Source: Methylophaga sp.
GTDB taxonomy: Bacteria; Pseudomonadota; Gammaproteobacteria; Nitrosococcales; Methylophagaceae
Assembly (NCBI GenBank): GCA_030148085.1
Contig: JASBUF010000061.1
Location: forward strand, 1-64,000
Length of the DNA stretch: 64,000 bases
Reading direction: 5' to 3'
In this document: one piece after another, positions 32,110 to 39,059 of the stretch
Layout: each line of letters begins with the position of its first letter
How positions within the stretch are numbered: the first letter of the stretch is position 1
Translations under genes and position numbers: made by a program
The notes under the pieces: generated by a model
Databases searched by the model: none
Seen by the model: the letters and a program-made list of their open reading frames with translations, nothing else
What the model was told of the DNA's origin: nothing

Positions 32110-32439
32110 CTAGAACATACCTAACTGAAGCTGCGCTGCTTCACTCATCATGTCCTTGGTCCATTGTGGTTCCCAGACCAGCTCAACGTGGGCTTTTTTA
32201 ACAGCATCAATCGACATGACGCGTGATTCAACATCACCGGGGAAGGATTGTGCTACCGGGCAACCGGGAGCAGTCAACGTCATCTCAATATGCACATTGC
32301 CTGAGTTGCTGACTTCGATATTGTAGATAAGCCCGAGTTCATAAATATTGATCGGAATTTCAGGGTCATAAATCGTCTTCAGAACCTCAATGACCTCTTC
32401 TTTGAGTTGTTCCGGGCTAATTTGGTATTGATCGTTCAT
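32110..32439 (-). CDS. sufT: SufT, DUF59/MIP18-family iron-sulfur maturation protein
   Basis: Last gene of the suf operon. The 109-residue protein has the DUF59 pattern: YDPEIPINIYELGLIYNI, then MTLTAPGCPVAQSFP with the conserved cysteine, and a C-terminal VELVWEPQWTKDMMSE. SufT family members help mature or deliver Fe-S clusters. It begins 12 bases after the sufU stop. Confidence 0.9.
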   Translation of the reverse strand: MNDQYQISPEQLKEEVIEVLKTIYDPEIPINIYELGLIYNIEVSNSGNVHIEMTLTAPGCPVAQSFPGDVESRVMSIDAVKKAHVELVWEPQWTKDMMSEAAQLQLGMF

Positions 32440-32451
32440 GTTCTGCCCTGC

Positions 32452-32898
32452 TTATTCCGTACTGACCGAGATATCGTGGTCGTTGTCCATTGCTGCGTGG
32501 ACGGTATGCCATGACAAAGTGGCGCATTTTACGCGCGCCGGAAACTCTTTCACTCCGCCCAGTACTTGTAGCTTACCGGCCAGTTCAGCATTTTCAGATT
32601 CACCAGTCAGCGCATTGTGCACATTGTCATAAAGCTTTTCGGCTTCTTCCAGTGTTTTGCCTTTCAGGGTTTCTGTCATCAATGATGCAGACGCGACTGA
32701 AATCGCACAGCCACTACCCTGAAAGCTGACATCTTCAATCACACCGTCATTCAGCTTCACATAGACCACCAAAGCGTCACCACACAATGGGTTATTGCCG
32801 TGTGCCATATGGTTGGCATCGACGATCTCACGGAAGTTACGTGGATTTTTCTTATGATCCATGATCACTTGTTGATATAGATCGCGTAAATCACTCAT
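32452..32898 (-). CDS. sufU: SufU-type iron-sulfur assembly protein
   Basis: IscU-like protein of the SufU branch; in Bacillus SufU is a zinc-dependent sulfur acceptor that activates SufS. The 148-residue protein has Cys39 with Asp41 (PLCGDA), Cys64 (GSGCAIS) and Cys125 (VKCATLSW), plus the insertion between the last two that marks SufU. Its ATG shares one base with the sufS stop (TGATG). Confidence 0.92.
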   Translation of the reverse strand: MSDLRDLYQQVIMDHKKNPRNFREIVDANHMAHGNNPLCGDALVVYVKLNDGVIEDVSFQGSGCAISVASASLMTETLKGKTLEEAEKLYDNVHNALTGESENAELAGKLQVLGGVKEFPARVKCATLSWHTVHAAMDNDHDISVSTE

Positions 32899-34151
32899 CA
32901 GGCAAACAGCTCCTGTGTAGTTTTGATGGCGTTGACCAGCGCATCAATTTCTTGCTCGGTGTTATAAAAAGCAAACGACGCACGGGCGGTCGCGGCAATA
33001 CCGTAAAACTGCATCACCGGCTGTGCACAGTGGTGACCTGCACGGATAGCAACGCCTTGTTGATCAAAGATGGTACCGACATCATGCGGATGCACATCTT
33101 CAATCATAAACGACAGCACGCTGGCTTTATCTTTTGCGGTACCGATTATGCGAACACCGTCCATCGCTTCCAGTTTACGGGTCGCGGCGTCTAGCAAGTG
33201 ATGTTCATAAGCCGCCAGATTCTCAATACCCAGGCTGTTCATGTAATCAATCGCAGCGCCAAGACCAACAGCACCAGCAATATGCGGTGTACCGGCCTCA
33301 AATTTGTATGGCAAAGCGTTGTATATCGTATTGTCGAAGCTGACCGACAAAATCATATCGCCACCGCCCTGCCAGGGTGGCATCGCTTCCAATAAGGCCT
33401 GCTTACCGTAAAGCGCACCAATACCGGTTGGTGCAAACATCTTATGACCGGAAAAGACGTAGAAGTCACAATCCAGATCCTGCACATCTACCACCAGATG
33501 TGGCACGGCCTGCGCGCCATCAACCAGAACAGGTATCGATTTGGCTTTTGCCTTGGCAATGATGTCTTTGATTGGATTCACAGTACCCAAGGCATTAGAC
33601 ACATGACCAATGGCCAAGATCTTAGTGCGTTCGTTGAGCAGTTCATCCAGACCAGTCAAATCCAGTTCGCCGGATTCAACCATCGGAATGACTTTCAGCT
33701 TGGCACCGGTCTGCTCACAGACCATCTGCCAAGGAACGATGTTGGCATGATGCTCGAGATAACTAATAAGAACTTCATCACCGGCTTTAAGCTGTGGTCG
33801 AGCAAAGCTCTGTGCAACCAGATTAATAGCCTCTGTTGCACCACGAGTGAAGATAATTTCTTTATCTGACTTGGCACCCAAAAATCCGCGTACTTTGTCA
33901 CGTGCACCCTCGTAAGCATCCGTTGCACGCTGACTCAGACGATGGACACCACGGTGTACATTGGCGTTATCCAGACGATAGTAAGCATCAACCGCTTCAA
34001 TCACCTGAATCGGTTTCTGGCTGCTCGCTGCATTATCCAAATACACCAGCGGATGACCGTTCACTTCCTGATTCAGAATCGGGAAGTCTTGTCTTATCAC
34101 CTCAACATCAAGTGCAGTGCTGTCGACTACTTTTAATTCAGTTTGCGTCAT
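32898..34151 (-). CDS. sufS: cysteine desulfurase SufS
   Basis: PLP enzyme that removes sulfur from cysteine for cluster assembly. I start at the ATG at 34151, ten bases after AGGGG (417 residues); a GTG at 34160 overlapping the sufD stop is also possible but leaves no room for the ribosome site. The PLP lysine is in VFSGHKMFAPTG and the catalytic cysteine in RAGHHCAQP. Class V aminotransferase fold, normal length. Confidence 0.94.
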   Translation of the reverse strand: MTQTELKVVDSTALDVEVIRQDFPILNQEVNGHPLVYLDNAASSQKPIQVIEAVDAYYRLDNANVHRGVHRLSQRATDAYEGARDKVRGFLGAKSDKEIIFTRGATEAINLVAQSFARPQLKAGDEVLISYLEHHANIVPWQMVCEQTGAKLKVIPMVESGELDLTGLDELLNERTKILAIGHVSNALGTVNPIKDIIAKAKAKSIPVLVDGAQAVPHLVVDVQDLDCDFYVFSGHKMFAPTGIGALYGKQALLEAMPPWQGGGDMILSVSFDNTIYNALPYKFEAGTPHIAGAVGLGAAIDYMNSLGIENLAAYEHHLLDAATRKLEAMDGVRIIGTAKDKASVLSFMIEDVHPHDVGTIFDQQGVAIRAGHHCAQPVMQFYGIAATARASFAFYNTEQEIDALVNAIKTTQELFA

Positions 34152-34156
34152 ATCAA

Positions 34157-35458
34157 TCACGCCCCTTTCGGTAACCGTTTCTCTATGACATTAGACAGCG
34201 CCTGGCGAATCGGCTCGTCCTTGATGCGTTGCAATACATCAACAGCAAAGGCATAAGTCAGCAAACTACGTGCAGCGACTTCATCCAGACCACGGGCACG
34301 CAGGAAGAATAAGTGTTGCTCATCAATCTGGCCAACAGTGCTGCCATGGGCACACTTCACGTCATCAGCATAGATTTCCAGCTCTGGCTTGCTGTCAACT
34401 TCACAGCTACGTGACAGCAACAAGTTTTTATTGCTCTGGCTGGAATCGGTTTTCTGTGCATCCTTGTGCACAATGACTTTACCGTTGAAGACCGCGTGGC
34501 TATTGCCATCCAGCACGCCTTTGTAGACTTCATCACTGGTCGTGTTAGCCACAGCATGATCGATGCGCGTGTGGTTATCCACATGCTGATCCGCTTCAAC
34601 TAGATACAAGCCGTCCATGGTGACATGCGCACCTTCACCCAGCAATTGAGTGTGAATGTCGTTACGCGCCAGCTTGCTACCCAACGAGATGTTATTGGTG
34701 TTCCATACACTACCTGCTGCCTGTTTGGCTGCAAGCGTAGCAATATGGAATTGTCCCATTGACTCATGCTGCAATTTGAAGTGATTCAATGTCGCGTTTT
34801 CTGCCAGTTGAACTTCGCTCACGACATTGCTGAAACCTTTAGTCTCAGCCAGGCTGACATAATGCTCCACAACCGTTGCTTGAGCGCCCGCATCAATCTG
34901 AATTACATGACGCAAGTGGCTGGCTAGATCGGCGTTCTCAGCCGTGCTGATCACCAAGACCTCAATTGGCTTGGCAATCTTTTGTCCAGCCGCAACGTGG
35001 ACATAGACGCCATCCTGCATCAGCATGGTATTGAGCGCAGTCAGGCCTGGTTTATCGATCTCAACCTGCTGACCAATCACGCTTTCAACCTGCGCAAATG
35101 ACTCAGCGATAGATGCAATCGTCAGTCCGTCTTCAAGACCGTCCAGTTGTGACAGCGCAGCATTAAATTGACCGTCAATAATAACCAGTCGATAGGCATT
35201 TTCCAGCGCAGCTACTTGATTAACCTGCGCAGTATCAAGGCTAGTTTCGCTGGCCGTATGCGAGAAGGTTTGCTGACTCAAAGCCCACAATGAGGTGTAC
35301 TTCCAGTCTTCCACTTTCTTAGCTGGCAGACCTTGGCGGTCAAACTGAGCTTTCGCCTGCTGACGCAGCTGTGTCAGCCAGTTGAGCCCAGCGCCGGGCA
35401 ATGTAGCAGTCGCTGCTACCTCGCTAAATGGCGTTGTGATCTCGTTTAACTGTTTCAT
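34157..35458 (-). CDS. sufD: SufD, SUF scaffold subunit
   Basis: Partner of SufB and SufC in the SufBC2D scaffold that builds Fe-S clusters. The 433-residue protein has the C-terminal beta-helix core ([21 protein letters not shown] region) and [12 protein letters not shown] near the N-terminus, typical of SufD. Its ATG overlaps the sufC stop (ATGA). Confidence 0.93.
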
Positions 35459-36216
35459 GCTGTTTGACCTTCCGGTGCATCGTGGATCCAGCTGTAACCA
35501 GATTTCTCCAGTTCTTTCGCCAGCTCTTTATCACCTGATTTCACGATCTGGCCTTGTGACAGCACGTGGACAAAGTCAGGCACAATATGATCCAGCAGGC
35601 GCTGGTAGTGGGTAATCATCACGATTGAGCGATCTGCAGCACGCAGCGCATTCACGCCTTCAGACACGATGCGCAGCGCGTCGATATCCAGACCTGAGTC
35701 GGTTTCATCCAGAATCGCCAAAGCTGGTTCCAGCACGGCCATTTGCAGGATTTCGTTACGTTTCTTCTCACCGCCGGAGAAGCCTTCGTTCACGTTACGG
35801 TGCAGGAACTGTTCGTCCATTTTCACCAGCTTCATTTTGTCGCGAACCAACGTCAGAAAATCAATCGCATCAACTTCATCCTGACCTTGATATTTACGTA
35901 CAGCGTTCAGCGCGGCTTTCAACAGATAAACATTGCTGACACCGGGGATTTCAACGGGATATTGGAAAGCAAGGAAAACACCGCGCTGGGCACGTTCTTC
36001 CGGTTCCAGTTCCAGCAAGTTTTCACCTTTGTAAATCACTTCACCCTGAGTGACTTCATAACCATCACGGCCAGCTAAAACATTAGACAAGGTGCTCTTA
36101 CCGGCACCGTTTGGTCCCATGATGGCGTGTACTTCACCAGGATTCACTGTCAGGTTAATGCCGCGGAGGATTTCTTTACCGTCAACGCTGGCATGCAAGT
36201 TTTTAATTTCTAACAT
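35455..36216 (-). CDS. sufC: SufC, ATPase of the SUF scaffold
   Basis: ABC-type ATPase that drives conformational change of SufB-SufD. The 253-residue protein has Walker [10 protein letters not shown], signature [15 protein letters not shown], and Walker B with the SufC-typical [14 protein letters not shown]. It lies 44 bases after sufB and overlaps sufD by four bases. Confidence 0.96.
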
Positions 36217-36260: not shown

Positions 36261-37709
36261 TTAGCCGACCGAACCTTCTAATGACAAACCAAGCAGGTTC
36301 TGTGCTTCTACCGCGAACTCCATCGGCAGCTCACGGATAACCTGTTTACAGAAGCCGTTTACAATCATCGAGACGGCGTCTTCGGCATCCAGACCACGTT
36401 GTTTACAGTAGAACAACTGATCTTCACTAATTTTTGAGGTCGATGCCTCATGTTCTACCTTAGCCGTCGGGTTTTTCACCTCGATATACGGAAAGGTATG
36501 CGCGCCACATTTATCACCCATCAACAGTGAGTCACACTCGGTATAGTTACGGGCGTTTTCGGCATTCGGGCCAACACGAACCAGACCACGGTATGCATTT
36601 TGCGAACGACCAGCTGAAATACCTTTAGAAATGATGGTCGAGCTGGTGTTTTTACCCAGATGAATCATCTTGGTACCTGTATCAGCCTGCTGCATATTGT
36701 TGGTCACAGCGACCGAGTAAAACTCACCGACAGAGTTATCACCCTGCAACACCACACTTGGGTATTTCCAGGTAATCGCTGAACCGGTTTCAACCTGTGT
36801 CCATGAGACTTTCGATGACACACCACGGCAGGCAGCACGTTTGGTTACAAAGTTGTAGATACCACCCTTGCCGTTTTCATCACCCGGATACCAGTTCTGT
36901 ACGGTCGAGTATTTGATTTCAGCACGATCCATCGCAACCAACTCTACTACAGCGGCGTGCAATTGATTTTCATCACGCATCGGTGCGGTACAGCCTTCCA
37001 GATAACTCACATAGGAATCATCATCGGCAATAATCAGGGTACGCTCGAACTGACCGGTGTTGGCCGCATTGATACGGAAGTAGGTCGACAGTTCCATCGG
37101 GCAACGTACACCTTTAGGAATGTAGACAAACGAACCATCACTGAATACCGCAGAGTTCAGGGCGGCATAGAAGTTATCTTTGTAAGGCACGACGCTGCCC
37201 AGGTATTTTTCAACCAAATCTGGGTGCTCTTTTAACGCCTTAGAAATAGGCATAAAGATAATGCCCTCTTCCGCCAGTTTGTCCTGGAAGGTATTGGCGA
37301 CAGAAACACTGTCAAAGACAGCATCAACAGCCACACCAGCCAGACGCGCACGCTCATCGAGTGGCACACCCAGCTTTTCGTAGGTCTTCAGCAATTCTGG
37401 ATCGACTTCATCCAAGCTTTTCGGGCCATCGTCTTTTTTCTTAGGCGCCGAGTAGTAGCTGATTTCCTGATAATCAATTGGTGGATAATGCACATGAGCC
37501 CACTCAGGGGTGTCCATCGTCAGCCAGTGGCGATAGGCTTTTAGGCGGTACTCCAGCATGAACTCCGGCTCACCCTTGATGCGTGAAATCTCACGAATAA
37601 CGTCTTCATTCAGACCGGGCGGCAGGCTGTCGGCTTCAATATCGGTAACGAAACCGGCCTTGTATTCACGTTGTGTAATCGACTCAAGTTGTTGACTTTG
37701 ATCAGTCAT
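36261..37709 (-). CDS. sufB: SufB, SUF scaffold subunit
   Basis: Main scaffold on which the cluster forms. I start at the ATG at 37709 (482 residues), six bases after GGTGAG and overlapping the regulator gene by eight bases. It has [16 protein letters not shown] near the N-terminus and the conserved [20 protein letters not shown] region (about residue 390), then [17 protein letters not shown]. Normal length. Confidence 0.95.
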
Positions 37710-38190
37710 GGAACTCACCATCCTGTATTGTTGCATTACTCATCGTTGCTGATGAATAGAATCTAATCGGGCTCAGCCCTGGCACACGCTGTGGTGCCAA
37801 CATATCTGACAATTTCACTTCATCCAGTGCGTGAAAGACAGCATTGTTGATGCGTGTCCAGTTTGTCTGAACAGCGCAATGCGTTTCCTGTTCACAGTGG
37901 CTTTCATCACTGACGCACTCGGTCAGGGCGATCGGTCCTTCAATCGCGGTGATTATCTCAGCCACCGAAATCTTCTCCGGCTCACGACTCAGGCTATAGC
38001 CACCCGCCACACCTCGTTCAGAGAGCAGTAAACCGCCGTGCGACAGGGACTTCAGCACTTTTCTGACAGTAGGTAGCGGCACTTTTACTGCATCAGCAAT
38101 GGTGTGGGCACTATGCTGCTCTTGGCGGTTCGTGGCCAAGTAGCTCATCAATACGATGCCGTAATCTGTCAGTTTGCCCATACGCAGCAT
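37702..38190 (-). CDS. Rrf2/IscR-type regulator of the SUF operon
   Basis: First gene of the suf operon. The 162-residue protein has an N-terminal winged helix ([31 protein letters not shown]) and three cysteines at 92, 99 and 105, almost the same positions as the [2Fe-2S] ligands of IscR. It probably senses cluster supply and represses the operon. AGGAGG lies seven bases before the ATG. A near-perfect dyad sits over its own promoter. Related genes are called sufR or iscR; I leave the symbol open. Confidence 0.9.
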
Positions 38191-38205
38191 AGCTGGCCCT
38201 CCTAA

Positions 38206-38226
38206 TTGGTACTATTATAGTATCAA
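38206..38226 (-). promoter_or_regulatory. suf operon promoter with overlapping 21-bp operator dyad
   Basis: Read on the minus strand, TTGATACTAT-A-ATAGTACCAA is a 21-base dyad with one mismatch per arm. It contains a perfect -10 hexamer TATAAT; a -35-like TTGGTT lies 17 bases further upstream. A repressor bound here would block RNA polymerase, so it is the likely site for the Rrf2-type regulator encoded immediately downstream. Confidence 0.7.
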
Positions 38227-38378
38227 TTAAGTTAATAACCAAGTGAAATGCTCAGTTATTGTGATTGACTCAGTGAAAATTCTGTTGAATTCGCGTATGG
38301 TGATGAACTTTAAAACAGACAATTGTACTAAATTTCGGCAACACCTATTTAGACAAAATCCAACTTGAGAGCATTTAA

Positions 38379-39059
38379 ATGAAATTAAAAGCACTGATTT
38401 TTTTACCCTTGTTATTTGGAGCAAACGTAATGGCTGACGATCACGCCGCGTCTTTAGACACTGATAAACAAAAGCTGAGCTACATTTTTGGTATTCAAGT
38501 TGGACAAAACATGATGCAGGAAGGCGTTGAGCTTGACCTGGATGCATTTAAAGCTGGTGTAGCCGACATGATGGCTGGTAAACAACCGCAGTTGGATCAA
38601 GCGACAGCTGAAAAAGTCATCTCTGAATTCCAAACTCAAAAAGCGCAGGAAATGGCTAAGGTCATGAATGAAAAGCAAGCTGAAGCAAAAGCTTACATGA
38701 CTGAAAATGCGAAAAAAGACGGTGTCGTCACCACTGAAAGCGGTCTGCAATACGAAATTATCGAAGCAGGCGATGGTGCAACCCCTGGCCCTGAAGATAA
38801 AGTTATCGCGCACTACAAAGGCACACTGCTTGACGGTACCGTTTTCGATAGCTCATACGATCGTGGCGAACCAGCGACCTTCCCTGTTAATGGCGTCATT
38901 CAAGGTTGGCAAGAAACCCTGCAAATGATGAAAGAAGGTGCAAAATGGCGCATCGTCGTTCCAGCTAACCTGGCTTACGGTCCACGTGGTGCCGGTCAGT
39001 TGATTGGCCCGAACGAAACGTTAGTCTTCGACATTGAATTGATTGCCATCACCAAGTAA
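38379..39059 (+). CDS. fklB: FKBP-type peptidyl-prolyl isomerase, periplasmic
   Basis: Protein-folding helper of the FkpA/FklB/Mip group. The 226-residue protein has a signal peptide (about 19 residues, ending VMA), a dimerising helical FKBP_N domain (about 25-120, with Gln/Ala/Lys-rich helices) and a C-terminal FKBP domain (about 125-225: VIAHYKGTLLDGTVFDSSYDR, VIQGWQETLQMMKEGAKW, LAYGPRGAG). The signal peptide points to the periplasm, so the role is closer to FkpA or Mip than to cytosolic FklB; symbol uncertain. It is divergent from the suf regulator. Confidence 0.88.
   Translation: MKLKALIFLPLLFGANVMADDHAASLDTDKQKLSYIFGIQVGQNMMQEGVELDLDAFKAGVADMMAGKQPQLDQATAEKVISEFQTQKAQEMAKVMNEKQAEAKAYMTENAKKDGVVTTESGLQYEIIEAGDGATPGPEDKVIAHYKGTLLDGTVFDSSYDRGEPATFPVNGVIQGWQETLQMMKEGAKWRIVVPANLAYGPRGAGQLIGPNETLVFDIELIAITK

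Follow-up and report, generated by a model that had tools for sequence, protein, structure and literature searches.

Paired dyads over the -10 and -35 boxes of the suf promoter of a Methylophaga sp.: candidate operators of the Rrf2-type regulators SufR and IscR

How the suf operon is controlled is the question raised by a stretch of 64,000 nucleotides (the window) from a Methylophaga sp. (GCA_030148085.1, contig JASBUF010000061.1), in which the operon begins with a gene for an Rrf2-type regulator, sufR. A sequence-only reading of this region had described a near-perfect dyad of 21 bases at the promoter, and had predicted that the operon is autorepressed in a cluster-dependent manner. The features of the locus are listed in Table 1.

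Table 1. Positions of the promoter elements and genes of the suf locus in the window
Feature	Position	Strand	Basis
Dyad 1, candidate SufR box (operator), AATTGATACTATAATAGTACCAATT, centre 38216	38204..38228	-	sequence, repeat search, conservation
-10 box TATAAT, middle of dyad 1	38214..38219	-	sequence; class-wide -10 register at dyad centre
Weak -35 box TTGGTT, 17-bp spacer, within right half of dyad 2	38237..38242	-	sequence, conserved
Dyad 2, IscR type-2-like site, ATAACTGAGCATTTCACTTGGTTAT, centre 38247	38235..38259	-	conserved block, 31-bp offset
sufR ribosome-binding site AGGAGG	38198..38203	-	read from sequence
sufR, Rrf2-type regulator (TIGR02944), 162 aa	37702..38190	-	C92 C99 C105 + D9; 157.5 bits
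sufB ORF; true start probably internal, past sufR stop	36261..37736	-	ORF list + profile
sufC	35455..36216	-	
sufD	34157..35458	-	
sufS	32898..34160	-	
sufU	32452..32898	-	
sufT-like SUF-associated protein (TIGR02945)	32110..32439	-	

The suf operon and its first gene

The operon runs in the order sufR-sufB-sufC-sufD-sufS-sufU-sufT on the minus strand of contig C79 of the host genome (2.46 Mb in 95 contigs), and a scan of the operon end gave a single terminator-like site, which is weak and confined to the plus strand. Divergent from sufR is a gene identified by eye as that of an FKBP-type isomerase (38379-39059), and the intergenic region could serve both genes. Separate from suf, the host carries a cluster cysE-iscR-iscS-iscA. 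No match to iscU above the cut-off was found in the host genome, the assembly of which is about 90% complete, so that the ISC scaffold could be absent from the assembly only; two matches below the cut-off correspond to sufU and to a second NifU/SufU-like place on contig C12. Two more Rrf2 regulators of the host genome (L003 and L004) are of the NsrR/RirA type and score below the curated NsrR cut-off, and one of them is divergent from a flavohaemoglobin-like gene.

With 157.5 bits against a curated cut-off of 110.65, SufR is a member of TIGR02944, and sufR occupies the place specified for this family, the first gene of a suf operon, being followed by sufB, C, D, S, U and T. Its named relatives, with identities of 68-91%, are mostly from Methylophaga. 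Against the IscR model TIGR02010 (curated cut-off, 207.55), SufR gave 66 bits, below the cut-off, and the separate IscR of the host gave 201.2 bits, just below it. The score with the NsrR model was 47.9 bits, below the cut-off of 182 bits, and the NsrR ligand residues (Asp8 and three Cys) are present.

Three Cys at the cluster positions of IscR had been claimed for the regulator. C92, C99 and C105 are indeed present, and the three are kept in 145, 144 and 145 of 145 SufR proteins. The fourth IscR ligand is absent: the position of IscR His107 is occupied by His in none of the 145 and by Q in SufR of the window, so that the IscR ligand set (C92, C98, C104 and H107) is incomplete and the cluster need not resemble that of IscR. 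An acidic residue stands at the position of NsrR Asp8 in all 145 (D in 143, E in 2), and most SufR have Val or Leu at that of NsrR Arg12. In NsrR, according to the available part of the source, a [4Fe-4S] cluster is held by three Cys and by Asp8 of the other subunit (PMC5411485). Because three Cys and an NsrR-type acidic residue are combined in SufR with the absence of His107, its residues suggest a [4Fe-4S] cluster.

In one relative with a genome of 1.1 Mb (G003; loci L241 and L242, contig 23), sufR is still an open frame, with Asp9 and two of the three Cys lost, and the suf genes downstream of it are well kept.

A palindrome over the -10 box

The dyad proved to be even longer than first described. 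The 21-mer TTGATACTATAATAGTACCAA (38206-38226, minus strand) lies within a palindrome in which 11 of 12 arm pairs match over 25 bp (dyad 1), or 12 of 13 over 27 bp, and a repeat search gave arms of 13 nt each (38203-38215 and 38217-38229), 92% complementary with a gap of 1 nt. TATAAT, said to be contained in the dyad, was located at its very centre (38219-38214). The distance of 16 bases given between the dyad and the ATG has to be corrected to 15 from the 21-mer and 13 from the 25-mer, the ATG being at 38190. No sigma-70-like site was found by a generic promoter scan because the -35 box agrees with TTGACA at only three of six positions, and it is conservation that supports the promoter register. 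Transcription would be expected to start near 38207, about 7 bases past the -10 box and within dyad 1, and a SufR dimer on dyad 1 would cover both the -10 box and this start site. With a weight matrix derived from other families, dyad 1 scored 25.9, against a maximum of 8.4 for the remaining 300-bp tiles of the window (426 tiles, both strands), and the 21-bp pattern with up to three mismatches had its sole match in the whole host genome at the suf promoter.

The prediction had been made to depend on the presence of the dyad in orthologous suf promoters, and there it was found. One and only one copy of the core ACTATAATRGT is present in each of 46 related upstream sequences (the window and L034-L078), which were collected with the regulator's own peptides, so that this sample leans to close relatives. 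Where dyad 1 is the best palindrome within Methylophagaceae, it has 8-12 of 12 pairs and lies 12-17 bases upstream of the start codon. The site is present in L075 and L077, which were excluded from the column counts and from the 145 SufR. Four distant or partial loci stand outside the count of 46: a weak dyad is present in L079, a GGACTAAACTGGTCC-like stretch was seen by eye only in L080, and L081 and L082 have none. Each of 23 genomes of the genus with SufR has a match to dyad 1 at suf with no mismatch. The counts for L034-L078 and for the family genomes G002-G056 were not summed, since most of the genomes in the two sets are identical. In G003, the right half of dyad 1 is lost and TATAAT is retained.

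Beyond the family, a total of 106 genomes with TIGR02944 were found among 370 gammaproteobacterial genomes with a completeness of 90% or more, and after four genomes of Methylophagaceae were dropped, 102 genomes from 56 families were left. By a symmetric matrix, the dyad upstream of sufR exceeds the 99th percentile of dinucleotide shuffles in 101 of the 102, and 99.9% of the shuffles in 100. The matrix had been fitted on these same 102 sequences, and for this reason the analysis was rerun by leaving out one family at a time: 100 of 102 exceed all 200 of their own shuffles, and the identical place was picked in all 102, the exceptions being G109, which has no site, and G222, a narrow miss. For the class, the consensus is approximately AAATAGKACTAAAATAGTMCTATTT. 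A five-of-six match to TATAAT is at the dyad centre on the coding strand in 41 of 101 sequences and on the other strand in 1 of 101, and the best mean match to a -35 box falls at a spacer of 17.

The site had been judged unlike the IscR motifs of E. coli, a judgement that does not hold as worded. The IscR type 1 site is given as ATASYYGACTRWWWYAGTCRRSTAT in the accessible part of a report (PMC6599224), and dyad 1 agrees with its core ACTRWWWYAGT at 11 of 11 positions. The two share the length and the full 11-bp core, and the flanks alone differ, with agreement at 13 of 25 positions altogether; the complete type 1 pattern with up to three mismatches has no match in the window, where the core alone does match. 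Upstream of iscR of the host, a site agrees with type 1 at 23 of 25 positions, and among 30 iscR upstream sequences including this one the agreement is 21-25 of 25 in all 30; Glu43 is present in all 30 IscR examined. Dyad 1 and a type 1 site in one and the same genome indicate that two distinct kinds of site coexist.

Residue 43 of the recognition helix, which is E in IscR and mostly S or R in SufR, was considered as a partner of bases -8/-7 of the site, which would have linked SufR to dyad 1, and this coevolution was dropped as evidence after 1255 residue-base pairs, scanned without bias, gave no clear lead (43/-6, Z 3.2; 43/-7, Z 2.3; 43/-8, Z -0.1). A targeted family-level permutation had given p values of 0.027 and 0.011 (sum, 0.001), which were discounted because the hypothesis arose from the same data. 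Three genomes (G027, G030 and G056) have R43, yet A at -8.

A second dyad over the -35 box

The first reading of the promoter took in dyad 1, and missed a conserved dyad over the -35 box that had gone unnoticed and is new here. When the promoters were aligned on dyad 1, a second block, AATAACYnAG-n7-CTTGGTTATT, appeared at a fixed distance; its centre and the sequence further upstream carry little information. This dyad 2, of the pattern ATAACYnAG-n7-CTTGGTTAT, has its centre 31 bp upstream of that of dyad 1 and, with the outer pair included, extends over 27 bp (38234-38260). The type 2 site of IscR has the outer halves WWWWCC-n13-GGWWWW and the inner bases YA/TR. Dyad 2 resembles this form in its length and outer halves, with C or T at position 7 and C at position 8 of the half-site, and differs in its inner bases, AG/CT. 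Bases 7 and 8 of the type 2 half-site are read by Glu43 of IscR, as stated in the part of PMC5411485 that is available. The copy in the window, ATAACT...GGTTAT, is one base off the outer-half pattern, which has no exact match there; in several relatives it is ATAACC...GGTTAT. Across 24 genomes of the genus, matches to dyad 2 with up to one mismatch are found at suf only, and those with two are scattered, in the reversed control too. Outside Methylophagaceae, none of 101 sequences scored above 12 of the 19 specified positions at the 31-bp offset. A scan at any position gave dyad-2-like sequences 26 bp upstream of the SufR box in G273 (16), G418 (14) and G174 (13) (L104, L095 and L086), where 99% of shuffles reach 13 and their maximum is 15, and where G273 and G418 belong to the same family.

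Relatives without IscR are natural knock-outs, in which the two operators are already separated. Of 57 family genomes, 47 have IscR as called by TIGR02010 with E up to 1e-20, and dyad 2 was scored over the 19 positions in 54 genomes, including G003 with its SufR below the cut-off; no SufR was obtained from G001, G011 and G043, which lie outside this scoring. Among genomes at least 94% complete, dyad 2 scored 15-19 in all 30 with IscR, and is degenerate in all three without IscR (G027, 10; G003, 12; G056, 13); the naive exact p of 0.00018 is uncorrected for kinship and reflects about three lineages. G030, 84% complete and without IscR, scored 9. SufR and dyad 1 are intact in G027, G030 and G056, and the decay of dyad 2 is mostly in the left half, that without the -35 box. 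Each dyad was seen to be lost together with its presumed regulator. Four other IscR-negative genomes, 55-88% complete, scored 17-19, and their IscR may be lost from the assembly only. Counter-examples are G009 (75% complete), with IscR and a score of 12, and G034, with IscR and 15. SufR and IscR are the only Rrf2 proteins detected in 13 genomes, and dyad 2 is intact in 12 of these, the exception being G009. The IscR-less genomes are small (1.1-1.9 Mb), few and partly related, and have lost other genes too. In the one-contig genome G037, iscR is split over two frames (G037:C1:462221-462615; a pseudogene or a sequencing error), and dyad 2 scored 19 despite this. Taken with the form of the half-sites, this pattern makes a site of IscR the best, and moderately probable, reading of dyad 2.

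Models of control and comparison with known systems

In the model that we infer, as to binding, the sign of each input and the cluster type alike, a cluster-loaded SufR dimer on the 25-bp palindrome would sit over the start site as well as the -10 box and keep sufR-sufBCDSUT from being transcribed; on a shortage or destruction of clusters, SufR would lose its cluster and leave the DNA, and the operon would be derepressed, which is negative feedback. Of the cluster-dependent autorepression predicted from the start, the autorepression by SufR through dyad 1 is highly probable, because it is supported by family-wide conservation, one site per genome, the position over the -10 box and the precedent of RisR (see below). 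The separate IscR would bind dyad 2, about 40 bp upstream of the start and over a weak -35 box, as a second input. At the suf promoters of Yersinia and E. coli, IscR is described as an activator in the accessible part of PMC8262890. Activation is the most likely sign here as well, which a weak -35 box and a site centred near -40 would suit, and repression could also apply. As a whole, this two-part reading, with SufR as repressor at dyad 1 and an IscR input at dyad 2, is judged probable from the sequence comparisons.

The fixed offset of 31 bp, about three turns, would also suit two dimers on one face of the DNA, as expected if SufR alone controls the promoter, with dyad 2 as a diverged second site of its own. 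Dyad 2, however, is devoid of the AC-n7-GT core and is degenerate in G027, G030 and G056 though SufR and dyad 1 are intact, and this alternative is distinctly unlikely. There is a small but appreciable chance that a different regulator binds dyad 2 and was lost along with IscR as the reduced genomes shed further genes; against this, its length, half-sites and bases 7 and 8 fit IscR type 2, and NsrR-type paralogues are unneeded because dyad 2 is intact in 12 of the 13 genomes with SufR and IscR only.

That IscR rather than SufR binds dyad 1 is suggested by a core equal to that of type 1 at every position, but is very improbable given that dyad 1 is intact in IscR-less G027, G030 and G056, that the flanks read by Glu43 of IscR differ, and that a near-canonical type 1 site is kept at iscR of the host. 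A conserved core promoter with a chance palindrome and no regulator would account for the -10 and -35 boxes sitting in the two dyads, and is hardly credible when conservation reaches 10 bases past the -10 box on both sides, symmetrically in 56 families, and the -35 box does not include the left half of dyad 2.

Within the two-part reading, a more specific form is put forward only tentatively: the suf promoter of Methylophagaceae may be a two-sensor gate, at which a [4Fe-4S] SufR represses at the -10 box and a [2Fe-2S] IscR acts at the -35 box. The two regulators would perhaps let the promoter listen to two cluster types, and a second input at suf suggests why a bacterium with SUF as the only detected scaffold system keeps IscR. 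If the gate is true, the two jobs of E. coli IscR are split between paralogues, one per cluster type, and each operator persists only as long as its own regulator. In E. coli, IscR has a type 1 site at isc and a type 2 site at suf. The likeness lies in the 25-bp length and core of dyad 1 and in a type-2-like site at the suf promoter; in E. coli, one IscR with His107 serves both site types, whereas here two paralogues appear to divide them and the suf regulator is without His107.

Fuangthong is said to have described in 2015 the IscR of Xanthomonas campestris, a SUF-only gammaproteobacterium (cited in PMC6599224 and PMC8593673). Unlike SufR here, that regulator is named IscR and linked to type 1, and its site is filed among the characterized type 1 sites in the available part of PMC6599224. 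The model name suf_reg_Xantho suggests that it belongs to the same family as SufR.

Autorepression of this type is a known kind of circuit. RisR of Myxococcus xanthus, an Rrf2 holo-repressor of the IS6 subgroup, occludes the -10/-35 region of suf, as shown by footprint and mutation in the accessible part of PMC9973013. Its operator is given there as T(t/g)GAC-N7-GTCC(t/a) (PMC9973013), to which the class consensus, about TAGKAC-N7-GTMCTA, conforms, the copy in the window, TAC-N7-GTA, being a variant. RisR and SufR are alike as Rrf2 repressors of suf, probably with [4Fe-4S], with GAC-N7-GTC and T/A flanks and with negative feedback; RisR differs by its C92-C102-C108 in place of C92-C99-C105 and by its control of isc and suf, with no second Rrf2 input described in that part of the paper (PMC9973013). 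NsrR of Streptomyces coelicolor shares three Cys and an acidic residue at position 8, but senses NO and differs in its targets and its operator; in this protein Arg12 pairs with Asp8 (PMC5411485, available part). The SufR of cyanobacteria and actinobacteria likewise autorepresses the suf operon through a palindrome, but is of the DeoR type with the motif CAAC-N6-GTTG, the name alone being common (PMC8593673, available part).

A search of an open-access library showed no paper on a TIGR02944 operator across Gammaproteobacteria, none on a two-Rrf2 suf promoter and none with the TIGR02944 accession or model name; dyad 1 offers a testable, class-wide candidate operator for this widespread regulator family. 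In four relatives (L045, L047, L053 and L073), cysE-iscR-iscA is located upstream of sufR on the same strand, with iscR-iscA directly next to it and cysE of L053 out of reach, and no iscS was found between iscR-iscA and sufR in these four. The order iscR-iscA-sufR resembles the isc-suf operons of Alphaproteobacteria, and its place upstream of sufR on the same strand fits a shared circuit.
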